This document shows, one piece after another, positions 9,004-25,351 of a stretch of 36,731 nucleotides of DNA. This DNA comes from Bdellovibrionales bacterium (GTDB lineage: Bacteria; Bdellovibrionota; UBA1018; CAIMNF01). The stretch lies in assembly GCA_018969905.1 (NCBI GenBank), contig JAGWXK010000015.1, positions 1 to 36,731 of the forward strand. The letters run 5' to 3'. The notes below the pieces were generated by a model. It ran no database searches, was not told the DNA's origin, and saw only the letters and a list, made by a program, of their open reading frames with translations. Position 1 is the first letter of the stretch; each line of letters starts with the position of its first letter. Made by a program: the position numbers and the translations under genes.

Positions 9004-12000
9004 GTGAAGTTGTCCACTACTAGAGTTCGAATCCAGTCTTTTCTGTATCGTTTGATCGCAAGTGTATTGATCGCCCAGTCGGTCTTCATGCCGCTTGCAA
9101 GGGCTCAAAGCATTCCCGGCGGACCAGTCAATTCCGAGGAGAGTTTTTCAACCCCGAATGGGATGTCTGGGGAAGATCCTTCTCTTCCTGGCAGCGAGGC
9201 AGAAGCGCTTCAAGACGCAGAGGACCTTCGAAATGTAATTGAAGGTACCAGCGATCGAGTACGTCTTCGAATCGACACTTATGGATTTTATGACCTGATA
9301 CCCGACCCAGATTTTGCGGAGAGTCGAACGGTGGTTTCCGTAGCCGGATTGGAAGCATTCACGCGGGAAGATCGACATTTCGAGCTTAGGTTTCGGAATC
9401 GAAAAATCCTAGAGTCGAGATTTCCGGTGCAGGCTCTTTCTCGTTTTGGCGATTTTTTGGTCTTCATTGAAGACGGAGCTTATCTTTCCTCCATTCCCGA
9501 AGCAGATCGTGCAAAGGTGGGAGTGGAGAAAGGCATTCAATATCTTTCTTTCATCGATCTGAAGCAGTATTCGATGATGTTTGGGCATTCCAAAAGTACA
9601 CCGCCAATCTTTACTGTTCCGATTGCCGCAACCGCAGGAACTACATCGATTTCTGGAAATGGGGTCGAGCTGGTTTTGCAAGGTTCCGACGGAAACTCAG
9701 TACGTGTTCCAAAGGTGATTCTCGAGACCTGGTCTCGAAACATTTACGGTTTGGCGATTGATGTGACTGCAAGAATTCTTACTCCCGGTAGCTATGCGAC
9801 TCTTGGAGGGGTGGTTGAAGAGCTGGAGGCCTATTTCAAGCAAGCAATGGATGAAGCAGCGATGGTTGAGGCCCCGGAGCAAGTTGCTGCAGCCCAGGAA
9901 ATTCGTAAACAACTGGTGGAGAAAATCAAGGCCCGCAAGTTTTCGCCCGAAACCATCAAGAATGATGAGGTAGTGCGTGCCGGAATTGAGCAAACTGGAA
10001 AGTCTTTGGTGTTGCAGCGAAAAGTAGCGACTCGACTTCGAATGATCTGGCAACGTCTTAGCTTTCCTGCACCGATCGAGTCAGCGAAGACGGTAAAGGA
10101 ATCACTTGCACTTACCGCCTACGGGCTTACCCATTGGAATCACGCCGGCGCATCCGCGTTGAAGGAAGGATCACTTCAGCTCCTTGATCATAAATATGCA
10201 GGAATTGCGATTAAATTTGGGGTTCCAGTTGCAGCGGCGGCAATGTTGGGAGCGGCGTACCCCGTCGAGTTTTCTCAGTTTGCATTTCAAGCACTCAATC
10301 AGGGTTCGATTGCGATCCATGGGACCATAGGATTTACGCGGAATCTATTTGATCTCGGAGTGGATTCGGTGGTTGAAACCCTGAAGGGATTGAAGCCTGC
10401 GAACTTCTATCAGGCGTACATGGCGGATGGGAAGGCTCCCAAGTTCGCCGTGGGCGTAGGAGCGATCTTCGCAACAGGAGTGGCGATCCTCGCAACTCCG
10501 CTTCTGGTGGTAAATTCGTGGATGCTGGTGAAGGATTTGAAGAAAATGGGATCCTTCAGTGTAGACGCATTTATTGAGCGCCAAAGAAAACAGCTTGTAA
10601 GTTATTTGGATGTTCAGGCAGAGACGCAGAAGAAACTTTCTCTTCGATTTGGAGTGGAGGCCAATACGGAATTCACCTCGGAGGATCATGAAGAAGTCAA
10701 ACGCATCTTGGCTGAGGTAAAAGAAAGAGATCGGAGTCTCCTACGGAAGGTATTTGATTCAGCAAGAGATCGTTCTCTTGAGATCCGCGAAAAGTTTCTG
10801 GAGCGAGTTTCGAAGTGGAGGGTGTTTCGAAAGAAAACCTGGGATCAGGATCCAACTCCTGTCACGGCATCGACAGAGGAAACGAGCTCAGTGGCGCCCC
10901 TTTTGGATTCGGAGTCCATAGCAAGATCAAGGATTCACAGTTTTGGCACAGCACTTCAATCGTTTTTGATTAGTTACCCCTCCATCACTGAGGGTTTCTC
11001 TGCTTTGGTTCGCGGATGGAATGGATTCACAATCTTCCGAGCTGTGTTCTGGAGCCCGACGCTTTGGTGCATTCAGACCCTTTACCCAAATTTTACAAAT
11101 GTTGCTCTTGGCGATGGTTCAAGTCGAGAGGTCAATGTTCCCAGTCGTGCCAATGGAGGCCTGGATCCGACTCCGATTGCGATGAAGAGAGTGTTTCAGT
11201 TTCTGACTCATAGCTCGAACCTTCAGTTGATTCGCGCATGGGAACACAAGGTCCTTCCCATTGAACGTGCACTCTTTCAAAAGGCAATGGAGAAGGGTTT
11301 TGGTGCTCTTGCAGGCGAGGTCCGTGCACAAGGGGCGGATCTGAAGCCTTTGTTTCAAAACGTGACTTCGCTCACGGACAAAAGGTTTCAGGAACTGAGC
11401 TTTAAACAAAAAGTTTTCTTCATGCGCTATGTGGAGTCGCTCACTGCCCGTGGATTGCAAAAGCTGCTTACTGAGACCTTAGCGCAGAACTCAAATCTCG
11501 AGGTTCTCGGAGACGGGTTGGCCGACCTATCCATGTCGGAGCTGAAGGAAAGAACACTCACTCTGATTGACAAAGTTCAGATGGATGAGGCAACAGCTGC
11601 ACGTCTCATTGAAGCAGAGGTTCAGGCCGGGCTTGCCCTTGAGGATGCCCGAAAGTCGGTAAAAGGTTTAAATCCGGAACAGCTTTTGGATCGCTTGCGA
11701 TTGGGAGCGCTTGGAGTGGTTGATCCAAAAAACACCCCTTCATTCAAACGAGTCCAGGTGGTTTTGGAGATGATGCAAAAGCCTGAGTCCATGCCTAGGG
11801 CAGTAAGAGCCACTCTTTCCTCGCTCGTGATGGCAAAGCTTCTTGGAGTGGGCATGACCCTGGTCGCGCTCTCCTCCATGACTGGATCGATTTTGCAGCC
11901 ATTTTATCCAGACGCGATGTTCGGCCCGGACAGTTATTTTTACATGGGGAAATACCCTTTTGTGAACGGAATCCTGCTGGGTCTTGCCACTTCGATGATG

Positions 12001-13663: not shown

Positions 13664-14282
13664 ATGAAGGTGCATTATGTCAAAAAAATCAAAGCCCTAC
13701 TGCTGCTGATTTTTTTTTCAGGGAAGCACGGCCTTTGCCGCGGATCTTGCGGCAATTCAGGCAAGATTTGAAGCCGAGTTTGTCAGTGGATACGCCGAAG
13801 GCAAGTGCGGTGAAAACATCAATGGTTTCCTTGCTCGCCTTTCCCGATCGAGGGTCGATTTTAGGTGTGTTGTTTCCTTCCTCGCCGATGGAGGAGGTGA
13901 TGTGAGCGTATATCATGCCAGAAATGCCCATGGCCTGCCCGAGCGCCGCACCTGGTTCCATCATTATTTTGCAGTGATTCCATCCCATTCCGACTGCCAT
14001 CGAGAGGCGTATCGTCCGCGGAATACGGATTACGTTTTGGATTTTGATTTCGGCAATCAGCCGCTGTTGGTACCTCTTCGCACCTATCTGGAAACCATGT
14101 GGTTGTCGAAACGGCTGCATCGAAATCCCGATGCTCTTCGTACCGATTTTTCCGCCGGAATCACGTCCTTTCAGGTTGTCGATGCCGTGCGAGCACTCCG
14201 TGCGGAAACTCCCGATGCACGTCGCAAGTCGGTGATCATCGAAAAGATCAGATTGCGGGATCTTTATCTTGGCCTGCTCTAG
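13664..14282 (+). pseudogene. Secreted hypothetical protein gene interrupted by a frameshift at a T9 run
   Basis: ATG 13664 encodes MKVHYVKKIKALLLLIFF, then leaves frame; the frame after the T run reads QGSTAFAADLAAIQARFEAEFVSGYAEGKCGENINGFLARLSRSRVDFRCVVSFLADGGGDVSVYHARN... through to 14282. Confidence 0.65.
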
Positions 14283-15361
14283 GGGCTCCGGGATTCACCA
14301 AACGGCTTGTCTCCAAGCGCCTTTTTCGCAAACCACTTCGAGAACTGAATTCCCGGGTGATCCACCCAGCGGTACAAAAAATAAGAAACTGAAATCAGCA
14401 GGGCTGTGGTCATCAGGAAGTTGATCGCAATTCCAGAGTTGGTTTCATGACTGCTCCAAATGCAACCCAACCACGAGGTGAAGGATACAAGAATCAGGAA
14501 GTGGATTGCATAAAGCGCGTAGGAGATCTTTCCCAGAAAATCGGGAACTCCTTGCGCAAGATAAGCGCGTACTCGCGGTGAATTCAGGAGGACATACATT
14601 AGGACCGCGGCACAGATTCCGCGAACATAATCCGCCGACTTTCCGCTCAAATCAGACAGGGCAAATGCCGGGAGCGTAAGGAGCGGCAGTAGCCAGCGGG
14701 GCGGGGTGTGAAGCGGAAGGCGGGTGAGCGCGGCGCCGAGGAAAAAAGGAAGAATCCCCTTCCAGGTTCCACACGCCAGGGCGATCAACGCAAAACCGAT
14801 CAGGGACTTGGTGCCATTCCGCAGAATCGCAATCGCGAAAAACAGAAGATAGGACGAAATCAACTCATAGCCGATGGTCCAAAGACTCGGATTGTAACTC
14901 GTGCTCGATTTGAATTGAAAGTACACCCCGTAAAGTGCCTGCCCGATCGCATCCGGGAGGTTTCCCTGAAATCGGAGATAGCCCCGGAGCCATTTGGAAT
15001 CCGTGATTCCGGCATAGACTCCGGAATGGATTCCCTGAAGCGAAAGCAGGAGCAGCGTGAGCAGGATGGAAACCAGCACGAGCGGCAGGAGTCGCAAATA
15101 CCGCCGCAGCAGGAGATCCAGAATGTGCTTCGGGAATTCCGAAGGTCCCATGTCCCGGCTCTTCCAGGCGAGGACGAATCCGGAGTGGGCGAAAAACCAG
15201 GAAACGGCAAGATTCGGGTTCAGTAGCAGGTGTCGCCAGTCGTGGGGACCGAAATAAAAGGGTGGGTGAAAAATCAACAGGAAGTGGTGAACGAAAACGA
15301 CAAACGCCGCAATTCCGCGCATGCCCTCGAGGCCCTCGACCCGAACCGTCTCCCGGCTCAT
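14279..15361 (-). CDS. Acyltransferase family 3 (OafA/YrhL-like) membrane protein
   Basis: RVEGLEGMRGIAAFVVFVHHFLLIFHPPF, SWFFAHSGFVLAWKSRD, LLLRRYLRLLP; start MSRETV at 15361 gives an ATGA overlap with speD. Confidence 0.9.
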   Translation of the reverse strand: MSRETVRVEGLEGMRGIAAFVVFVHHFLLIFHPPFYFGPHDWRHLLLNPNLAVSWFFAHSGFVLAWKSRDMGPSEFPKHILDLLLRRYLRLLPLVLVSILLTLLLLSLQGIHSGVYAGITDSKWLRGYLRFQGNLPDAIGQALYGVYFQFKSSTSYNPSLWTIGYELISSYLLFFAIAILRNGTKSLIGFALIALACGTWKGILPFFLGAALTRLPLHTPPRWLLPLLTLPAFALSDLSGKSADYVRGICAAVLMYVLLNSPRVRAYLAQGVPDFLGKISYALYAIHFLILVSFTSWLGCIWSSHETNSGIAINFLMTTALLISVSYFLYRWVDHPGIQFSKWFAKKALGDKPFGESRSP

Positions 15362-15714
15362 GCGGTGACTCCCCGTTCGAACTCGCGACCGGCACTGTGT
15401 TCGGCCTTGAATTTTTCTTTCAGGAAAGCCTCGATCCGTTCGGGCTTCATCGCTGCCCCGCAGCTGAATACATCCACGGATGCGCACCCGTGCTCGGGCC
15501 AGGTGTGGATGGCAATGTGGGATTCGGCGATCACCACCACCCCGCTCAGGCCGTGCGGATTGAAGCGGTGAAACACGTCGGTGACGATTTGTGCGTTTGA
15601 GAGTTTCGCAGATTCGAGCATGCACTCGCGGACATGATCGAGGCTGTTGATCAATTCACGGTCACAGCCCGAAAACTCGAGCAACAAATGGCGGCCCAAT
15701 GCAACCTTCTTCAT
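15358..15714 (-). CDS. speD: S-adenosylmethionine decarboxylase proenzyme (class 1B)
   Basis: Self-cleavage/pyruvoyl motif AESHIAIHTWPEHGCASVDVFSCG; LGRHLLLEFSGCD; 118 aa. Confidence 0.95.
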   Translation of the reverse strand: MKKVALGRHLLLEFSGCDRELINSLDHVRECMLESAKLSNAQIVTDVFHRFNPHGLSGVVVIAESHIAIHTWPEHGCASVDVFSCGAAMKPERIEAFLKEKFKAEHSAGREFERGVTA

Positions 15715-16826
15715 GCAACCCCTCCTTCATCGGCAAAGAGCGTCTCTCTCACCGGGCTTTTTTGATCCCTGATTCTCCAAATGAATCCATCCAGAATGTA
15801 GTGGGTTGCCTGGGGAAGCGCAAGCAGGGGAATGATCCAGGCAAGTGTCGCGCGGTCCTCCAAGCGGGGAAGCGCCGAAAAAAGTCCGAGGAAGTCAAAG
15901 TGTTCCCGCCAGACCAGTCCCGCCCAGAGGCCCTCCTCCAGATAAGCCGCGAGAAACAGGGCCCCCGCGAAAACCGGCAGAAGTGCGGGCTTGAAAAGTT
16001 TTCCCAGGTGGAATTCCGGATTCCCCCCGGAGGGGCGGGATGCCCTTCGGTTGCCAAAAATCCAGATCAGCGCAAGATACGGAATTCCGTGGCTTGCGAC
16101 ATTGGTCACCGTAAAGGCCATATCCCCGTTCATCCACACAATCCCCGTAAACCAGGAGAGGGCGGTTCCCGCCAGAATCAGCTGTTTTGGAACCAAGAGC
16201 GCGTGCCCTTTCCTGAGCAGGAGAATCTCCTTCACCCCGTAGGCCAGCAGAAGCAGCAGATAGAGCCCGAGGCTGATCCGTTCGAGAACCGGTGGCAGGA
16301 TCGCAAGAAAATCGCCCTGGATGAACCATTGGAAGTTCCGGGTCGGACTCGCATGCCAGTGAATCAGGGGATGGATCATGGAGTGATACAAAAGCAATTG
16401 ATCGATTCTGATGAACCGCAGCGTTTCGGGCGCGGCATTGCGAAGGTAGAGCATGAGAAATCCGTATTGCTGGCGGATGAAATGAAAAACCGCAAGGTAG
16501 GCGAGCGCCCGCCAGAACCACAACCCGTCAAGCGAATACAAAAACACCCCCGTGATCCAGGCCAAAAGCGGTGCCAGGATCAGAATTGCCCCCCTTTCCC
16601 GGATCTCGACCGGATCCAGATAAGTCCGAAAGAGGGTGCTGTACACGTGGGAGACATCAATTCCCAGGACAAAAACCATCCAGGCCCAAGGCGGAATTCC
16701 GGCACCATCCCCCCAGGAATCGCGAAACCACCAGGCCAAGGCCGAGGTCAGCACCCCGGGCCCCAGGATGAACAGCGAGTCGATGAGCGGTGAGTGAATC
16801 CATGCCGGGGCGGCCGCAGGTTTCAT
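15711..16826 (-). CDS. His-rich polytopic membrane protein, function unknown
   Basis: Multiple hydrophobic segments; conserved-looking His clusters DVSHVYSTLFRTY, AVFHFIRQQYGF, YHSMIHPLIHWHASP, SHGIPYLALIW, ATHYILDGFIWR; 4-nt overlaps on both sides. Confidence 0.8.
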   Translation of the reverse strand: MKPAAAPAWIHSPLIDSLFILGPGVLTSALAWWFRDSWGDGAGIPPWAWMVFVLGIDVSHVYSTLFRTYLDPVEIRERGAILILAPLLAWITGVFLYSLDGLWFWRALAYLAVFHFIRQQYGFLMLYLRNAAPETLRFIRIDQLLLYHSMIHPLIHWHASPTRNFQWFIQGDFLAILPPVLERISLGLYLLLLLAYGVKEILLLRKGHALLVPKQLILAGTALSWFTGIVWMNGDMAFTVTNVASHGIPYLALIWIFGNRRASRPSGGNPEFHLGKLFKPALLPVFAGALFLAAYLEEGLWAGLVWREHFDFLGLFSALPRLEDRATLAWIIPLLALPQATHYILDGFIWRIRDQKSPVRETLFADEGGVA

Positions 16827-18508
16827 GAATCCTCCCTTTGCGCGATTCCAAGTTCGCGAAGAACGGATTTTGCCGCCATTACGCCGCGGTATTGGGCCTC
16901 TTCAAAAATGGGAATGCCACTCATGTCGGAGTGGGCAAAGTGGATCTTTCCCACGGGTTTTGCCATGGCTTTGCGATCACTTCCGGTGATGAATCCGGGC
17001 TCCGGAATCGCCATGGCGTGTCCCCACACCCAGACATCGATGTTTTCGATCACCTCCGCAATTCCCGAATGCGTTTTGGAAAGGTCGGCAATGATCATCT
17101 CACACCACTCGGTGTGAGTGCGCTGATGGGCTTCCTTGCGCGCCGACACGGGATCGGTGTGGGAGAGGGGATGATAATAGGTGATCACGGTTTTCTTCGG
17201 ATGAAGATTGAGATTCTGATGGGTTGCGACCACGTAACCAAGAGCGGGGCTTGAGTAGCTGACATTGTCCCAGGAAAGCGGCGCCCCCCGGCCTCCGGGA
17301 AGTGAGCTCAGGCTGACATTGGCCACCATCCAGGGCGAATAGCCCACGGAAGCGGGGGTTCCCCGGGACGCGAGTTCGGGCACGATCCGGTTTGCCACGA
17401 ACCTCGGGGCTGCGAAGATCGCATGCTTTGCTTGAATGCGGGTCGTTTCTCCGGTGTCGGGATTGAAATGATCGGCAAGAACCTTTCCTCCCTCGTTTCG
17501 AACCGAGTGCACAAGTGCGCGCGTCCGGATTCGCGGTTCCACTTTTTTCCGAAGCTGCGAGACCAGCCAACCGTTTCCTTCGGGCCAGGTGAGCAAATGT
17601 TGGGGTTCCGCATTCTCCGCAATTCCTGCCCGCGCCGCAAAGTAATGGATCCCGGCCCATGCGGACACCCGGTCGTAGGTGGCTCCGTAGTCATCCCGAC
17701 AGCAGTAGTTCACATACCAATGCAGATAGTTGGAGTGCCAATTCCGCTCCTCAAGAAATGCTTTCATCGTGATCCGGTCGAGTGCGCGGTATTTGGCATC
17801 CGCGGACCCCAGCTCCAGCGGGATCGCAAAGTGCCGCTTGCCATCGCTTCCGCGCTCTTTCCGAAAGCGGTCCATAAGCGAGAAAAATTCCCGGTATTCT
17901 TCGCGGTCGCGGCTTCCGGCTCCGGTTTGCGGCACCAAGCCTTCCTGCCAGGATCCCTGTAAAAAAAGCCGCTCGCCCGGATCCGCACAGAGGTGGAACT
18001 CGTCGTAGACCGGAAGTCCCTTGCTTGAGTATCCACGGATGACTCCGACTTCTTCCAAAAGGGTCCGGACGTATCGGGCCTCGGGTCCCGGAATCGGGAG
18101 ATAGTGCGCACCCCAGGGATAGGCGCTGATCTGATTCCTACCGGAGCGGGAATTTCCTCCGGCCTCCTCCTCGAGTTCCAGAATCCGGTAGGAGGTTTGA
18201 TGATTCCGCTCCAGCCACCATCCGGCGGAAAGTCCCGAGATGCCACCCCCAATGATCACCGTGTCCGTGGTTTCCACCTTCGACGGCGCAGGGAACCGGC
18301 CCTCCCGAAGCAGATGACCGGTTTTTGCGGAGGCGCCGAGAATCCTTCCCGGTACGGGCTTCGGGCGGCGGTTGGTGAAATACCGAAGGGTCAGAGCTCC
18401 GGGCAAGGCGGCCCCAAGCGTCCAGAGTGCCGCCGACTTCAGGAAGGATCTGCGGGGATGGGGCGCGGGTTCCCCTTCCGGTTCAATGGATGTATTCGGA
18501 CCACTCAT
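16823..18508 (-). CDS. FAD-dependent oxidoreductase (amine-oxidase-like) with Tat signal
   Basis: Twin-arginine N-term HPRRSFLKSAALWTLGAALPGALTL; Rossmann motif TVIIGGGISGLSAGWWLERN...ELEEEAGGNSRSG. Confidence 0.88.
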   Translation of the reverse strand: MSGPNTSIEPEGEPAPHPRRSFLKSAALWTLGAALPGALTLRYFTNRRPKPVPGRILGASAKTGHLLREGRFPAPSKVETTDTVIIGGGISGLSAGWWLERNHQTSYRILELEEEAGGNSRSGRNQISAYPWGAHYLPIPGPEARYVRTLLEEVGVIRGYSSKGLPVYDEFHLCADPGERLFLQGSWQEGLVPQTGAGSRDREEYREFFSLMDRFRKERGSDGKRHFAIPLELGSADAKYRALDRITMKAFLEERNWHSNYLHWYVNYCCRDDYGATYDRVSAWAGIHYFAARAGIAENAEPQHLLTWPEGNGWLVSQLRKKVEPRIRTRALVHSVRNEGGKVLADHFNPDTGETTRIQAKHAIFAAPRFVANRIVPELASRGTPASVGYSPWMVANVSLSSLPGGRGAPLSWDNVSYSSPALGYVVATHQNLNLHPKKTVITYYHPLSHTDPVSARKEAHQRTHTEWCEMIIADLSKTHSGIAEVIENIDVWVWGHAMAIPEPGFITGSDRKAMAKPVGKIHFAHSDMSGIPIFEEAQYRGVMAAKSVLRELGIAQREDS

Positions 18509-19979
18509 GCTCGAAATATCTCACCAAAACCTGGTTGTTCAATTTGTTCACATCCGGAATCCGCGCGATCATGTCGTCCGGAAAATAAAGAAGGTTCTTC
18601 ACGGTGTCTGCGTTCACAAACCGGAGTCCCGCCGGAAACCGCTCGGGGGGCCGGAAATCGCCCCTCATTCCGATGACAAAACCCCATTCGCCAAAGGACG
18701 GCACCCACGCATGATAAGGGACGGTTTTCAGGCCGGTGGACTTCAGGGTGTTCTCCACGCACCAAAACGACTTTTTCGCGACATAGGGTGAGGTGCTCTG
18801 GATCACGAGGATTCCTTGCGGAGCAAGCGCTTCCTTCAAAACCCGGTAAAACGAGTTCGAATAAAGCTTCCCGATCGAGTAGTTGCTGGGATCGGGGAAA
18901 TCCACGGCGATGAAATCATAGGTGTCCTTTTGATCGCGTAGCCAGACAAATGCGTCTTCATTCAACACCCTGACCTTCGGATCTTTGAGGGAGTTTCCGT
19001 TCAGCGAGGTGAGGGAATCGTGGTTCCGGAACAGATCCGTCATGGAGGAGTCCAGATCGACGAGGGTGACGGATTCAACTGAGGGGTACTTCAGGATCTC
19101 GCGCACGGCAAGCCCGTCTCCGCCCCCGAGCACAAGTACCTTTCTTGGCGAGGGGAGTGCCGCAAGCCCGACATGAACCAGGGCTTCATGGTAGCGGTAT
19201 TCATCCCGCGAGCTGAACTGAAGGTTTCCATTCAAAAAAAGCCGCAAATCCCCGGGGGCCCGGGTGATCACGATCCGTTGATAGCGCGAGGACTTTGAAT
19301 AGATGACCTGGTCCTGATAACTCGCAGTTTCGGCAAAGCTCATGATTTTGTCCGAATAGACAAACCCAAAAACCAGCAGGATCAGGATCAGGATCGCAGA
19401 GCTGCGAAGCAGTCTCGCCCAAACCACTTCCCGTCCGAGCAGCACGAGCACCCACAGGGCCACGCCCGCATTCAGGATTCCGAAGAAGAACCCCGTGCGG
19501 ACCATGCCGAGGTGGGGTACCAGCACGAGGGGAAACAGCAGGGACGCAAGCAGGGCCCCGACGTAATCGAAGGTGAACACCTGGGAAACCAGATCCTTGA
19601 ATTCGAAGCGATCCTTGAGGATCCGCATGAGAAGAGGGATCTCGAGTCCGACCAGGGTTCCGGTGATGGTCACCAAAAGATACAACAGCACCCGGAAATA
19701 CCGGACGTGCTCGAAGGCGGTGAACAGGATTGCGGCAGAGCAACCGCCCACGAGCCCGACGAGCAGTTCCACCTGGATGAAGACGAAGACCAGGTTCCCG
19801 CGAACATATTTCGACAAGAAGGACCCGATCCCCATCGAAAACAGGTACACCCCGATGACCGTTGAAAACTGGGTGATTGAGTCCCCGAGCAGGTAACTGG
19901 CCAGGGCCCCCGAGATGAGCTCATAGATCAGCCCGCAGGTGGCGATTACAAATACCGAGAACAGCAGCAGGTACGGCAC
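18483..19979 (-). CDS. Spermidine synthase-like protein with N-terminal multi-TM domain
   Basis: About 7 N-terminal hydrophobic helices; VLVLGGGDGLAVREILKYPSVESVTLVDLDSSMTDL and DTYDFIAVDFPDPSNYSIGKLYSNSFYRVLKEAL. Confidence 0.92.
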   Translation of the reverse strand: MPYLLLFSVFVIATCGLIYELISGALASYLLGDSITQFSTVIGVYLFSMGIGSFLSKYVRGNLVFVFIQVELLVGLVGGCSAAILFTAFEHVRYFRVLLYLLVTITGTLVGLEIPLLMRILKDRFEFKDLVSQVFTFDYVGALLASLLFPLVLVPHLGMVRTGFFFGILNAGVALWVLVLLGREVVWARLLRSSAILILILLVFGFVYSDKIMSFAETASYQDQVIYSKSSRYQRIVITRAPGDLRLFLNGNLQFSSRDEYRYHEALVHVGLAALPSPRKVLVLGGGDGLAVREILKYPSVESVTLVDLDSSMTDLFRNHDSLTSLNGNSLKDPKVRVLNEDAFVWLRDQKDTYDFIAVDFPDPSNYSIGKLYSNSFYRVLKEALAPQGILVIQSTSPYVAKKSFWCVENTLKSTGLKTVPYHAWVPSFGEWGFVIGMRGDFRPPERFPAGLRFVNADTVKNLLYFPDDMIARIPDVNKLNNQVLVRYFEHEWSEYIH

Positions 19980-19984
19980 GCCAT

Positions 19985-20203
19985 CTACCCGTGAATCGCG
20001 GATGCGATGATGTGGGCAATGGCCAGGGTCATGGACCCGGCGGCCACCGCGAGCGCGATGTTGTGCTCTTCGACGATTTCCTTCCAGAGATTGCCCGGGG
20101 TCACCTTGTCAAAGATGAAAAAAGAAATCCAGAGCACCACCAGTCCGATGATTGAATACAGGATCGAGGCCAGTACCGTTTTCATATTGATCATTTGTTC
20201 CAT
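19985..20203 (-). CDS. DUF350 (YjfL-like) small membrane protein
   Basis: MEQMINMKTVLASILYSIIGLVVLWISFFIFDKVTPGNLWKEIVEEHNIALAVAAGSMTLAIAHIIASAIHG; start reassigned from 20428 to 20203 with AAAGGAGAA upstream. Confidence 0.85.
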   Translation of the reverse strand: MEQMINMKTVLASILYSIIGLVVLWISFFIFDKVTPGNLWKEIVEEHNIALAVAAGSMTLAIAHIIASAIHG

Positions 20204-20229: not shown

Positions 20230-20367
20230 TTATTTGTGAAAGACGCTGCGCCCCTTCGGATTCCAGTTTCCGGTGCTGAGTGCATGACCCAACGACCAAC
20301 CGGAACGGTTTGCGATGAAAAGGGTGATACAGACCAGCGTGCCGAAAATCAGGTAGGGGGTTTTCAT
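20230..20367 (-). CDS. 45-aa single-TM small protein (not in ORF track)
   Basis: MKTPYLIFGTLVCITLFIANRSGWSLGHALSTGNWNPKGRSVFHK*; ATGA overlap with the stop of the DUF4178 gene and 26 nt before the DUF350 start. Confidence 0.65.
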   Translation of the reverse strand: MKTPYLIFGTLVCITLFIANRSGWSLGHALSTGNWNPKGRSVFHK

Positions 20368-21641
20368 TCTTCATCCTTATGGACGTGGTACGGCGAAAAG
20401 TCGCTTTGGGACCAACGGGCCATCTCAAACCTTTTTTGGCGCCAGATCAGGAGTAGGGGGAAAATCGAGATCAGAAAGAGTGCCATGAGGAAGTTGGACA
20501 TCGGAATCGCACCCCGTTTGACCGTAATCGAGTAAAGAATGTCGGGCATTGAGCTCGAACCCTCCAGGTTCAGGTGGTACTTGCCATCGGGAACGGCAGG
20601 AAGAATGGCAGAGGTGTACCTCGAGCCTTCGCTCCAAAGCCCCTCATCATCACGGCCCTCGTAATATTCGACCCCCAGTTCGAGTTCGTCGACATCTCCG
20701 GTGGTCTCATTGACCAGGTCCATCTGGGACTCAAACCAATGATTCAACACGGGGGCATGCAGTCCGATCTTAACTCCGGTTTCGCCGCCCGTGAGCTCGA
20801 AGGAGGGGCTGGTTTTGGTTTTGACGGGGTCCGTGCGATCGTACGAATACCCTCCGGAGTAGACCTCTTTTTCTCCGGTGATCACAATGGACAGGAATTG
20901 GATCATCATGATTGCGATGAGGAACAGCCCCCAAATCTTGAGGAGCTCCTTCACCCTGCCTGCCAGGAGATCGGGTTGGTTCGGCGCCACTCCGATCGCT
21001 ACCGGCATCGGGGTTGTGATCTTGAACCCTTCCCGGACTTCGTCAGGACTCAGGTACTCTCCGATCGAGTACGTGATTTCCGTTTTGCTTTTTTCGATCG
21101 AGAGCATTTCGGGAGGGCAGATCAGGTCCCGGGTGGCGACGGTTTCGCCCACGAAGACGAGCCAATAGAACTCGCCCACCACATATTGAACCGTGGCCCT
21201 TCCATTGTGATAAAGCCGGTAGGTGCGGCCCATGTGGAGAACGGACTCTCCTTTCGGGTTTTTCGGAGGGTCCTTCAGGGGCAACACGTAATTCCAATGA
21301 CCATCCGCTTCGGTGAGCCAGCGATACCCGCGCATCGGATTGTAAAGCAGGTATTCACTCCAGACAAAGTAGGATTCCACATCCATTCTCGTCATGAAGC
21401 CGATGACTTCCCAGAGTTGCCCGCGAATCCTGCCCCTTTGGCCCAAAGGAATCACCTGGGGAACATTGAGTCTGGAGGCCGCCTCGCTCAGGATCCGGTG
21501 GTTTTCATCACGGGCGTCGATCACTGACTTGCACGAAGTGCAAACCACGCTGATGGTGTCGCCGGGCACCCGGATTTGCACCGTGGAACCGCACAAGGGA
21601 CAATTGAAAACCTTTGCCTTCGGAGCGGTTTCACCAGCCAT
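20364..21641 (-). CDS. DUF4178-domain protein with N-terminal zinc ribbon and two TM segments
   Basis: CPLCGSTVQIRVPGDTISVVCTSC; LGQRGRIRGQLWEVIGFMTR...WSEYLLYNPMRGYRWLTEADGHWNYVLPL. Confidence 0.85.
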   Translation of the reverse strand: MAGETAPKAKVFNCPLCGSTVQIRVPGDTISVVCTSCKSVIDARDENHRILSEAASRLNVPQVIPLGQRGRIRGQLWEVIGFMTRMDVESYFVWSEYLLYNPMRGYRWLTEADGHWNYVLPLKDPPKNPKGESVLHMGRTYRLYHNGRATVQYVVGEFYWLVFVGETVATRDLICPPEMLSIEKSKTEITYSIGEYLSPDEVREGFKITTPMPVAIGVAPNQPDLLAGRVKELLKIWGLFLIAIMMIQFLSIVITGEKEVYSGGYSYDRTDPVKTKTSPSFELTGGETGVKIGLHAPVLNHWFESQMDLVNETTGDVDELELGVEYYEGRDDEGLWSEGSRYTSAILPAVPDGKYHLNLEGSSSMPDILYSITVKRGAIPMSNFLMALFLISIFPLLLIWRQKRFEMARWSQSDFSPYHVHKDEE

Positions 21642-22263
21642 CGATTTCCCTCAAGCCCGTCAGCTTCAACTCATCCAGATCCACATACTTCCCGGTGAAC
21701 AGTCTGACCCCGTCTTCCGAATAGTCGATGCAGGCGAATTCCCCGCCCTCCCGGCTCAGGTCCACACTCGTGCTGACCCGTCCTTTCGGACACTTCATCG
21801 GCAGTTCGCCCTCGCTTCCCGCACAGGTGGCCTCTTTGATGTCATCCACATGGAATTCGAGGTTTTTCAGGAGCTTCAGGGTCTGTCCGGCTTCCAGGGT
21901 CTCCCGCCGGGGAACCCCGGAGAGGTTGGATTCGGAAAAGCTCATCATGAAACTGCCCTGCGCTTCCGCAAGCCAGCCTTCTTTTGCATTTTCAAAAAGC
22001 ACGTACCACTCGTTCCAGGAGCCGCCCTCCCAGCGGACTTTCAGGCGTCCCACGATCTCAAAGGCGGAATTTTCAAATTTTCCGCGGGTCCCGATCTGAA
22101 GCGGACTCATGTCCGCGGGCAGCTCGGCCATTTTCCCGAGGGTTTCAAGGTTCAAGTCATGACGAACCACCATGGAGGAACAATAGGTACACACTCCGAA
22201 TACCGAGACCTTCGACTTGAAAATGATTTCCGCCCCGCAGGCGGGGCAGCCAAGCTTTAGCAT
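21631..22263 (-). CDS. DUF4178-domain protein with N-terminal zinc ribbon
   Basis: CPACGAEIIFKSKVSVFGVCTYCSSMVV; IGTRGKFENSAFEIVGRLKVRWEGGSWNEWYVLFENAKEGWLAEAQGSF. Confidence 0.85.
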   Translation of the reverse strand: MLKLGCPACGAEIIFKSKVSVFGVCTYCSSMVVRHDLNLETLGKMAELPADMSPLQIGTRGKFENSAFEIVGRLKVRWEGGSWNEWYVLFENAKEGWLAEAQGSFMMSFSESNLSGVPRRETLEAGQTLKLLKNLEFHVDDIKEATCAGSEGELPMKCPKGRVSTSVDLSREGGEFACIDYSEDGVRLFTGKYVDLDELKLTGLREIDGW

Positions 22264-22267
22264 GGGG

Positions 22268-23254
22268 TCAGGTGATCTTTTTCAGGAGTTCGGCTTTTTT
22301 GGCATCAAATTCGCTTTGGGTGATCACACCCTTGACGAGAAGGTCGTGCAATTTCTGGATCGTGACGACCGGATCTTCTCCACCCGCGGAAGAACCCTGG
22401 CCTTGCAATGCGCCCATCATCGCTTGTCCGATGGCGACGCCGGCCCCCATTCCGGCGCCGACTCCGGCGGCACCGCCTTCATTCGCGGCGGCAGTCGAGA
22501 TGCTTTCTGCCGCTTGAAACTTTGCGTAGGAGTTCAGGTCCCCGACCATTTTCATGGAAGCGGCCGTGTCGAGGCGCGTTTGGAGCTCTTCCGGAAGCGA
22601 TACGCTCTGGACGAGGAAGCTTTGAAGTTCGAGTCCGTACTCCGCGATTGCCGGCTTCAAGGCCTCCTTCAGCGATTCCGAGAATTTCATCTGATTTGCA
22701 GCCATGTCGAGGAAGGCGACCTGGGATGAGCCAAGGAAGCTTGCAATCGAAGTGAGAATGGTCGCACGCAGCTGGCCCTCGAGCTCCTCTGCCGAGTATT
22801 TTGAGCGGGTGCCGCTGATTTTCTTGAAAAACACCTTCGGATTTTTCAAGCGGTAGGAATAGGCACCGTGCGCGCGGATCCGGATCGGGCCGTATTCGCG
22901 ATCGCGGATGACGATGGCGTTCGGGGTTCCCCAGCGCTGGTCGATCTGCTCGCGGGTCGAAAAGAAGTAGACATCCGATTTGAAGGGCGATTTGAAAAGC
23001 TTGTCCCAGTTCTTCAAGCTGGTGAGAACGGGAAGGGTCTGGGTGGTCAGGGTGTGCAAACCGGGCTCGAAGAGATCGGCAATTTCACCTTCGTTCACGA
23101 ACAGTGCAAGCTGCGATTCCCGAACCGTAAGTTTCGCACCATTTTGGATCTCCTGGTCTTCCATGGGGATCCGGCAGGCAAGGATTCCGTTCTCTTCCTC
23201 ATTCCATTCGATGACATCAATGAATTGCTTTTTGAAAAGTCCGCCGATTCCCAT
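22268..23254 (-). CDS. SPFH-like (YdjI/virion-core-like) protein with C-terminal SHOCT domain
   Basis: MGIGGLFKKQFIDVIEWNEEENGILACRIPMEDQEIQNGAKLTVRESQLALFVNEGEI; C-term VVTIQKLHDLLVKGVITQSEFDAKKAELLKKI; start reassigned to ATG 23254 with GGAGAGGG upstream. Confidence 0.9.
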   Translation of the reverse strand: MGIGGLFKKQFIDVIEWNEEENGILACRIPMEDQEIQNGAKLTVRESQLALFVNEGEIADLFEPGLHTLTTQTLPVLTSLKNWDKLFKSPFKSDVYFFSTREQIDQRWGTPNAIVIRDREYGPIRIRAHGAYSYRLKNPKVFFKKISGTRSKYSAEELEGQLRATILTSIASFLGSSQVAFLDMAANQMKFSESLKEALKPAIAEYGLELQSFLVQSVSLPEELQTRLDTAASMKMVGDLNSYAKFQAAESISTAAANEGGAAGVGAGMGAGVAIGQAMMGALQGQGSSAGGEDPVVTIQKLHDLLVKGVITQSEFDAKKAELLKKIT

Positions 23255-23370
23255 AAATCCCTCTCCGCATGCCCGAAGACACTGCTTGCAATGGTGGGTT
23301 GTGTGGAAGGAATTTACCCGAAAAAAACGAATCAACGCAAGAAAAATGGTCGTGTTTCGGAGGAAAGGTG

Positions 23371-24147
23371 ATGGTAGCCTTTCCCTCCATGAACTCTAAC
23401 CGTCTTCCAGCCCCGCGACCGGGTGCCCCCGACCGGAAAATACGGGTTTGGTCCGCGTCCGCGGGAGGAATTCTCCTTGCGATCGCATGGTTTTCAGGCG
23501 TGGTCTCCACCCTCGTCGCCCTCACGGGTTTGATTTTGGGAGCGCTCCTGTTCTGGATTTTTCGATGGTACCGGAAAGCGGATCAGGCCGCCCGGGATGC
23601 GCTCCCCGATCCCGCCCGCGCGGAGCAAAAAGAGCGGATCCGGATGATCCGCAAAGTGCGTTATCTTGAAAATGTCGGAGATCTCGGCGAGAGGGTGGCT
23701 TCCCAGGCCGAGCAAATCCCGGAGCGCATGGATCACTTTGTGAAGATGCTCGGGCTCAAATTTGATTCCGGTGAACTGGCGTTCCAGAGGTACCTTTCCG
23801 CAGCCGAAACCACCCGCCTTGCGCTTTTGGATCAGCTCCAGTTGGCAGCGGCGGCGTTGGGGGCTCTTGGAGCCGCAAGGGTCGGAACCGAAGAAGATTC
23901 TCCTGCCATCCGGGAACGCCTTGAACTCAGGGCGGAACAGGAAGGAAAGATCCGCGGAATCCTCGAATTCAACGAAAGAGCGCTGACGGAACTCGATCGG
24001 GTTTCCGCCGCAATCAGCGAAGTACGGACCTCGCGCGGGCTTACGGATGTCGCACTTGAGGATGTGCTCAAAGAACTCGCGGAGCTCGCGGGGCGTGCAA
24101 AAAAGTATTCAAATCCCGAATCGGAAGGAAAATCGAAAGATGAGTGA
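23371..24147 (+). CDS. Membrane-anchored coiled-coil protein, XpaC-like by position and architecture
   Basis: Start at ATG 23371 behind GGAGGAAAGGTG; N-terminal hydrophobic pair GGILLAIAWFSGVVSTLVALTGLILGALLFWIF; immediately precedes and overlaps telA. Confidence 0.6.
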   Translation: MVAFPSMNSNRLPAPRPGAPDRKIRVWSASAGGILLAIAWFSGVVSTLVALTGLILGALLFWIFRWYRKADQAARDALPDPARAEQKERIRMIRKVRYLENVGDLGERVASQAEQIPERMDHFVKMLGLKFDSGELAFQRYLSAAETTRLALLDQLQLAAAALGALGAARVGTEEDSPAIRERLELRAEQEGKIRGILEFNERALTELDRVSAAISEVRTSRGLTDVALEDVLKELAELAGRAKKYSNPESEGKSKDE

Positions 24148-25351
24148 TAAAAAAACCAATGGTGATCCAACCCGTAATCTCGCAGTGATTTCGCAGGAGG
24201 AGGTAAAAAAAGAGCTTCAAACCGGCACCTCCGGTATGCCCGCGCTGGATCCGGGAGAGGAGAAGGATCTGGATGCGAAGGCGGATGGATTCGTAAAGCA
24301 GCTCATTGAGTTCTCACCCGGAGCGATGGATCAGGAAGTGGACCGGAAGCGCTCGGTTGAACAGATGGGAATTGAGGCCCAGAAAGATGCTGCAAGACGA
24401 AGCGAGATGCTGAAGCAGCCCCTGACCGCGCTTTCGCGCAGGGCCGAGGATGGCGGAGAGGTGGCCAATGCTTTGATCGGGCTCAAGATGAAGGTCGAGG
24501 AGCTTGATCCTGGCAAGTTCGACTTTGAGGCGGGCTGGTTTTCGAGGACACTTGGGCGGTTGCCCGGTGTTGGAACGCCGATCAAACGGTATTTTTCGAA
24601 ATTTGAGAGCGCTCAGACCGTGATCCAGTCCATCATCCGTTCGCTCAAGGATGGAAAAGAGAGACTGCTCAGGGACAATGTCACGCTCTCCGAGGACCAA
24701 AAGCTCATGCGGGAGTGCACCCACAAATTGGACAAGGCCATCCGCCTCGGACAATTGATCGATCAGAAAATCCAGCACAGGCTGGAGCGTGAGATCCCGG
24801 TGGACGATCCAAGGCACCGGTTCATTTCAGAGGAGCTTTTGTTTCCCCTGCGCCAGCGGGTGATGGATCTTCAGCAGCAGTTGGTGGTCAATCAACAGGG
24901 GGTTTTGGCCGCGGAAATCATCATTCGAAACAACAAGGAGCTCGCCCGCGGGGTGGACCGCTCCCTGATGGTGACAGTAACGGCCCTTGAAGTGGGGGCC
25001 ACAGTCGCCTTGGCGCTTGCGAATCAAAAGATCGTGCTCGAGAAGATCGATGCGGTCAGCAAGACGACTTCGGATCTGATCGCCGGAACCGCAGCCCGTC
25101 TGAAAACCCAAGGCGTGGAAATCCACAAACAGGCCTCCTCGGCCCAGCTGAACATCGAGTCGCTGAAGGCGGCTTTTGCCGACATCCGAACTGCGATGGA
25201 GGATATTTCGAATTTCCGGGTTCAGGCGCTTCCGGGCATGGCGGCCTCGGTTCTTGAACTCGACAAACTGAGCCGCGAAACCGAGAAGACCATTCGGAAG
25301 ATGGAAGAGGGCAATCAGGCCAAGCCCGCGCTCAAGATCGACGTGGATTGA
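24140..25351 (+). CDS. Toxic anion resistance (TelA) family protein
   Basis: FMRRR-like/IQSIIRSLKDGKERLLRDNVTLSEDQKLM and LMVTVTALEVGATVALALANQKIVLEKIDAVSKTTSDLIAGTAARL; start MSDKKTNGD at 24140. Confidence 0.88.
   Translation: MSDKKTNGDPTRNLAVISQEEVKKELQTGTSGMPALDPGEEKDLDAKADGFVKQLIEFSPGAMDQEVDRKRSVEQMGIEAQKDAARRSEMLKQPLTALSRRAEDGGEVANALIGLKMKVEELDPGKFDFEAGWFSRTLGRLPGVGTPIKRYFSKFESAQTVIQSIIRSLKDGKERLLRDNVTLSEDQKLMRECTHKLDKAIRLGQLIDQKIQHRLEREIPVDDPRHRFISEELLFPLRQRVMDLQQQLVVNQQGVLAAEIIIRNNKELARGVDRSLMVTVTALEVGATVALALANQKIVLEKIDAVSKTTSDLIAGTAARLKTQGVEIHKQASSAQLNIESLKAAFADIRTAMEDISNFRVQALPGMAASVLELDKLSRETEKTIRKMEEGNQAKPALKIDVD

Follow-up and report, generated by a model that had tools for sequence, protein, structure and literature searches.

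Which molecule accepts the aminopropyl group in the SpeD/7TM-SpeE systems found in bacteria of several phyla? We know of no acceptor for this pair, which to our knowledge does not serve spermidine formation; 7TM-SpeE fusions reportedly fail to rescue a spermidine synthase deletion, and another acceptor is said to have been suggested. The locus analysed here encodes both enzymes as well as a small ORF, for which the original prediction proposed a 45-aa membrane peptide. Here, we consider what this peptide is and whether it could be the acceptor. Coordinates refer to the window, i.e. the whole stretch of DNA that was analysed (36,731 nucleotides), and the features are as follows:

14279-15361, minus strand: acyltransferase-3 (AT3)-like membrane protein, overlapping the speD stop (from sequence; operon membership uncertain)
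15358-15714, minus strand: SpeD, S-adenosylmethionine decarboxylase (TIGR03330, E 2e-38; PF02675)
15711-16826, minus strand: multi-TM His-rich protein with invariant His/Asp (no Pfam or NCBIfam family)
16823-18508, minus strand: flavin amine-oxidase-fold enzyme with a twin-arginine (Tat) signal (invariant R19-R20; Foldseek)
18483-19979, minus strand: 7TM domain plus spermidine-synthase-like aminopropyltransferase, Spermine_synth (NF002956, E 5e-204)
19985-20203, minus strand: DUF350 two-TM protein (PF03994)
20230-20367, minus strand: 45-aa single-TM peptide (45 codons) with C-terminal His-Lys, the predicted aminopropyl acceptor
20233-20238, minus strand: His-Lys codons at the C-terminus of the peptide, the conserved element (Lys is terminal in every real equivalent)
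20364-21641, minus strand: DUF4178 protein with a zinc-ribbon-like N-terminus and two TM segments, its stop overlapping the peptide ATG (PF13785)
20374-20378, minus strand: AAGGA Shine-Dalgarno sequence of the peptide, 6 nt 5' of the ATG (from sequence)
21631-22263, minus strand: soluble DUF4178 protein (PF13785)
22268-23335, minus strand: SPFH/band-7 protein (Band_7_1, PF13421, E 1e-74) with a C-terminal SHOCT domain (PF09851)

The peptide gene lies midway along an operon on the minus strand, in which adjacent genes overlap or nearly touch. The names SPFH, DUF4178, DUF350 and SpeE given in the original prediction are correct (Band_7_1 plus SHOCT, two DUF4178 genes, DUF350 and Spermine_synth, respectively), and the peptide is indeed embedded among these genes, but the operon extends past SpeE to the flavin oxidoreductase, the His-rich membrane protein, speD and the AT3-like gene. 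The SPFH ORF is TTG-initiated and its true start may be internal, while the AT3-like protein did not match any NCBIfam model. The His-rich protein, present in only some of these operons, resembles a membrane metal-dependent oxygenase; residues H60, H115, H158, H246, H342, D57, D172, D235 and D346 are kept in ten relatives. A TelA (toxic anion resistance) gene (24047-25351) diverges from the operon, and a TelA gene is also found within the SpeE operon of Alteromonas (L119). In Myxococcota and Burkholderia (L105-L110, L115, L120), the operon consists of two divergently oriented parts: one contains the Lys-tail gene together with DUF4178/SPFH, the other SpeE and the flavin enzyme.

The minus-strand ORF (the strand had been left unstated) translates exactly as MKTPYLIFGTLVCITLFIANRSGWSLGHALSTGNWNPKGRSVFHK. 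Its ATG overlaps the stop codon (TGA) of the DUF4178 gene upstream in the sequence ATGA, and a spacing of 26 nt separates its stop from the DUF350 start, both as originally described. No Pfam or NCBIfam model matched the peptide, and BLAST with the peptide alone against 13 genomes of its family returned weak unrelated matches only, with no convincing relative. Since sequence alone yields no relatives, synteny was used to find equivalents. Starting from the two-TM DUF4178 gene, we gathered its relatives in 28 of the 369 genomes of the phylum and at 67 loci on contigs from other phyla. Nearly all of these loci contain an ORF of 43-80 aa with one hydrophobic segment between DUF4178 and DUF350, and these syntenic one-TM equivalents span Bdellovibrionota, Proteobacteria, Planctomycetota and Myxococcota. 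The closest share the pattern GT..C...YA...GW(S/T)...S..SGKWGP.GHS.YHK, and the Novosphingobium equivalent has already been annotated by PGAP as a hypothetical protein (WP_193828724.1). Among 16 independent pairs of equivalents, pN/pS is 0.29, which corresponds to purifying selection, with 110, 83 and 230 differences at codon positions 1, 2 and 3, respectively. Conservation in related operons and selection on the ORF, both put forward originally as checks, hence favour a gene. A chance ORF in the intergenic gap would agree with the lack of a database family and of a BLAST relative; it is ruled out by the syntenic conservation and the pN/pS value, stands at odds with the annotated equivalent, and is given virtually no credence here. 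At the level of comparative sequence analysis, the peptide ORF is confirmed as a genuine gene.

Comparison of the equivalents reveals a striking regularity at the C-terminus. In a set of 76 ORFs chosen by position and hydrophobicity, with the ends not inspected and a few duplicate loci included, 75 terminate in lysine (HK 62, GK 11, QK 1, CK 1). The single non-Lys ORF (L041) turned out to be a mis-picked internal start of DUF350. The CK ending (L056) stems from an ORF that appears frame-shifted, and the QK ending (L030) belongs to a contig-end copy, with a second contig of that genome (L158) displaying HK. Hence, the residue preceding the terminal Lys is His or Gly in nearly all equivalents. 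Other operon genes have a terminal Lys in 0-5% of cases: control counts from the same loci are 0/56 for DUF350, 1/70 for SPFH, 4/80 for SpeE, 1/37 for the flavin (FAD) enzyme, 1/22 for SpeD and 1/35 for one of the DUF4178 genes (DUF4178a). Following removal of near-duplicates and addition of later finds, 117 of 118 rows are Lys-terminal (62 HK, 51 GK); this enlarged set was gathered partly by ending, and the 76-ORF set provides the unbiased count. The remaining row, which ends in KT (L111), represents a mis-picked DUF4178 paralogue, and the tailed protein at that locus ends in FGGK.

The Lys tail is also found on carriers other than the small peptide. Comamonadaceae, Polyangium and others possess a fused DUF4178-TM protein with one TM segment and a Gly/Ser tail ending in HK, GK or SK. 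Proteins of 135-144 aa with a TM segment form another carrier class. Two Bdellovibrionota genomes contain an operon consisting of a hypothetical protein, DUF350, a TM protein and SpeE, in which the TM protein ends in SGGFRFGK or SGGFKFGK. The Ensifer carrier is a 78-aa TM protein that ends in GGGPESGK and overlaps the SpeE start. In gammaproteobacterial YjfI/PspA/DUF350/SpeE operons, the carrier is a lipoprotein with endings such as SFRGK, GGGGK or SRSGK, and Alteromonas has a 510-aa lipoprotein with the end RGPSSGK. All carriers have in common a polar tail with a terminal Lys and a 7TM-SpeE gene nearby. Judged from these protein ends, the one feature that unrelated carriers retain in common is a free Lys at the C-terminus, almost always after His or Gly, on a polar, often Gly/Ser-rich tail. 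The alphaproteobacterial operon L250 encodes two different Gly/Ser-rich proteins ending in GGK (9816-10421 and 11213-11467), which suggests that a single enzyme may act on two or more tails.

The association of the tail with SpeE was assessed by scanning 55 SpeE regions for proteins with an [HG]K end, a hydrophobic segment and a tail rich in G/S/R/N/Y/H/F, using the flanking DNA beyond the operons (about 426 kb) as background; the plasmid locus L121, whose SpeE match is partial and spans 41% of the query, was excluded from the counts. The scan gave 46 matches within the set operon boundaries and 4 outside, the latter being true tails located just beyond the boundary, and the flanks contained no further Lys-tail match. 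By this rule, 48 of the 55 SpeE loci possess a Lys-tail protein, or 49 if one VK ending is included. Six loci are without a match: four belong to three genomes that have a tail beside DUF350 elsewhere (L268-L270), and one (L239) ends at a contig edge. The sole exception left unexplained is L256 (genome G1132), where no Lys-tail gene was found within 16 kb of a complete-looking set of SpeE, DUF350 and flavin enzyme. Within our window, the peptide is the only match, and it combines the TM segment, polar tail and C-terminal Lys with linkage to 7TM-SpeE and DUF350. The negative controls are few in number: a single DUF4178/DUF350 locus without SpeE (L159) has no Lys-tail peptide, and neither do two remote SpeE-like proteins without DUF350. 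These controls and the E. coli DUF1190 proteins, which do not have a Lys tail, indicate that the tail goes with the SpeE-DUF350 combination; the tailless remote SpeE-like proteins further indicate that a SpeE fold is not in itself sufficient to predict a tail.

SpeD and SpeE are each encoded by a single gene in the genome, both within this operon. The SpeE gene is of the PRK03612 type, scoring 678.6 bits against NF002956 (curated cut-off 472). Its invariant residues include the GGGDG motif (G285-G289), D310, D342, D360 and D363, which correspond to the motifs that bind decarboxylated AdoMet (dcAdoMet) and supply the catalytic Asp. The AF2 model (pLDDT 89.6) contains a C-terminal domain with an aminopropyltransferase fold according to Foldseek, the closest structures being the Thermus triamine/agmatine, thermospermine and Pyrobaculum enzymes. 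The 7TM-SpeE protein is thus predicted to be a membrane aminopropyltransferase. For the flavin enzyme, the nearest PDB protein by sequence is spermidine dehydrogenase, and the top Foldseek matches are MAO A/B, putrescine oxidase and SpdH (TM-score 0.57-0.64 by query length). An enzyme of this amine-oxidase fold could act on a modified tail.

The seven TM helices of the SpeE N-terminal domain (from hydropathy and AF2), with Lys/Arg-rich loops 2-3, 4-5 and 6-7, indicate a cytoplasmic N-terminus, and this topology model predicts that the SpeE domain faces the exterior. The tail is likewise predicted to be outside, given that some carriers are lipoproteins and that fused carriers have one TM segment following a predicted cytosolic domain. 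This argument rests on the lipoprotein and fused carriers as the flanking charge of the single-TM peptides provides a weak signal (28 of 74 tail-outside, 12 opposite and 34 tied). The invariant twin-arginine pair R19-R20 of the flavin enzyme indicates it is Tat-exported. SpeD has no signal and dcAdoMet is made in the cytoplasm, so that an outside SpeE domain would need dcAdoMet to be transported across the membrane. This requirement counts against the proposal below; the most evident putative transporter is the 7TM domain itself.

We propose that the peptide is probably a dedicated substrate of 7TM-SpeE, with the side chain of its terminal Lys aminopropylated outside the membrane; we regard the Lys-tailed peptide as the strongest candidate to date for the 7TM-SpeE acceptor. 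The peptide would be anchored in the cytoplasmic membrane via its single TM segment, with the flexible tail displayed outside. SpeD would supply dcAdoMet, and the SpeE domain would move the aminopropyl group onto the side-chain amine of the C-terminal Lys. Lysine is a plausible acceptor because its -(CH2)4-NH2 arm resembles putrescine, the usual acceptor. Furthermore, a slim polyamine pocket that admits only a free flexible chain end would account for the Lys always being last, often after Gly or His. The product, N-epsilon-aminopropyl-lysine, would constitute an envelope-anchored polyamine-like tail, which the Tat-exported flavin amine oxidase may trim, erase or activate. The SPFH, DUF4178 and DUF350 proteins may then employ this charged tail for maintenance of the membrane under stress.

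The main rival to aminopropylation is an unmodified docking tail. The terminal [HG]K would represent a docking or localisation motif in which the Lys is never modified and the peptide acts as a structural subunit or sensor; binding partners could be the SpeE domain, DUF350, SPFH, or an exported protease or PDZ-type receptor that binds the free C-terminus. Free C-termini often serve as ligands, and the retention of the tail on different anchors, including its fusion to DUF4178 in some lineages, is readily accommodated. A purely structural role for the peptide is possible. We nevertheless consider the docking explanation unlikely: a docking motif is expected to keep more than one or two residues, and DUF350 with DUF4178 but without SpeE is tailless while the DUF350-type lipoproteins of E. 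coli have a Gly-Gly end, hence the Lys follows SpeE.

Modification of the Lys by another chemistry or enzyme, for example amine-oxidase oxidation, AT3-like acylation or conjugation at the terminal carboxyl, appears improbable. The operon does encode a Tat-exported amine-oxidase-fold enzyme, and ATP-grasp peptide-spermidine ligases occur in E. coli sister operons, yet the oxidase and AT3 genes are absent from many tail-bearing operons (e.g. L153, L154, L232-L246), in which SpeE is the constant neighbour. Less probable again, and in our view very doubtful, is a small regulator or assembly subunit of an SPFH-DUF4178-DUF350 complex with an incidental terminal Lys. Such a role would suit the position in the operon and the DUF4178 fusion; it does not explain why the terminal Lys is invariant even among unrelated carriers, and the tail persists in loci without DUF4178 (L153, L154). 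The original prediction had suggested a small regulator or subunit of the membrane system. Membership of that system is well founded, as the peptide is kept in place, is under purifying selection and has its tail fused to DUF4178 in some lineages. The suggestion overlooks the free terminal Lys, which fits a modification substrate better because the Lys tail accompanies the 7TM-SpeE gene whatever the carrier.

Aminopropylation of the Lys tail would have partial parallels in known systems. In hypusine and deoxyhypusine of eIF5A, a lysine side chain bears a polyamine-derived aminoalkyl group, as proposed for the Lys tail; there, in contrast to the proposed Lys-tail chemistry, an unrelated enzyme transfers an aminobutyl group from spermidine to a lysine located within the chain of a cytosolic factor. 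Sortase and exosortase systems likewise combine unrelated carriers, a common short C-terminal tail and a nearby membrane enzyme, but in our proposal the free terminal residue is itself the target and no cleavage is proposed. The E. coli yjfIJKLMC operon is similar in that a DUF350-linked polyamine-transfer enzyme adjoins a membrane protein or lipoprotein with a Gly/Ser-rich tail. However, YjfC and YgiC are ATP-grasp peptide-spermidine ligases (RefSeq annotation) rather than aminopropyltransferases, and the DUF1190 lipoproteins YjfM and YgiB end in Gly-Gly where the peptide ends in His-Lys; a scan of the operon proteins found no ATP-grasp ligase gene. In E. coli MG1655, yjfM (L165:8388-9026) and ygiB (L166:1745-2416) adjoin YjfC and YgiC, respectively, with the Gly-Gly following a low-complexity tail. 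The YjfM and YgiB C-termini may be the natural substrates of the YjfC and YgiC ligases, in parallel to the Lys tails.

The operon class itself is already known. In the parts consulted, Ravi et al. 2024 (PMC11237479) describe PSP/SPFH-linked operons with a 7TM-spermidine synthase fusion, DUF350 and DUF4178, which resemble ours in the SpeE fusion, DUF350, DUF4178, band-7, AdoMet decarboxylase and polyamine-oxidase-like genes. That further substrates may be aminopropylated is already suggested there, with reference to Li et al. 2019. Searches of that text for lysine or glycine-rich gave nothing, and the portions concerned mention neither a Lys tail nor a short peptide; by comparison, a candidate substrate and an outside location are proposed here. 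A literature search for an aminopropyltransferase with a C-terminal lysine found no paper, nor did it find one on the tail or peptide. Relative to the literature found, including the portions of PMC11237479 above, the Lys tail and the peptide are new.

A 45-aa ORF without a detectable BLAST relative can still be a widely conserved pathway component. On balance we lean, cautiously, towards an extracytoplasmic system of many phyla in which 7TM-SpeE aminopropylates the free C-terminal Lys of membrane-anchored tails; this would be a dcAdoMet-driven counterpart of hypusine and would provide a role for SpeD/7TM-SpeE where the pair does not serve spermidine. The candidate acceptor is genetically linked to the enzyme, offers a single residue to mutate and carries a defined expected mass shift. 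If true, the proposal would mean a new protein modification and polyamine chemistry on the external side of the membrane, with a link to SPFH/PSP envelope stress.
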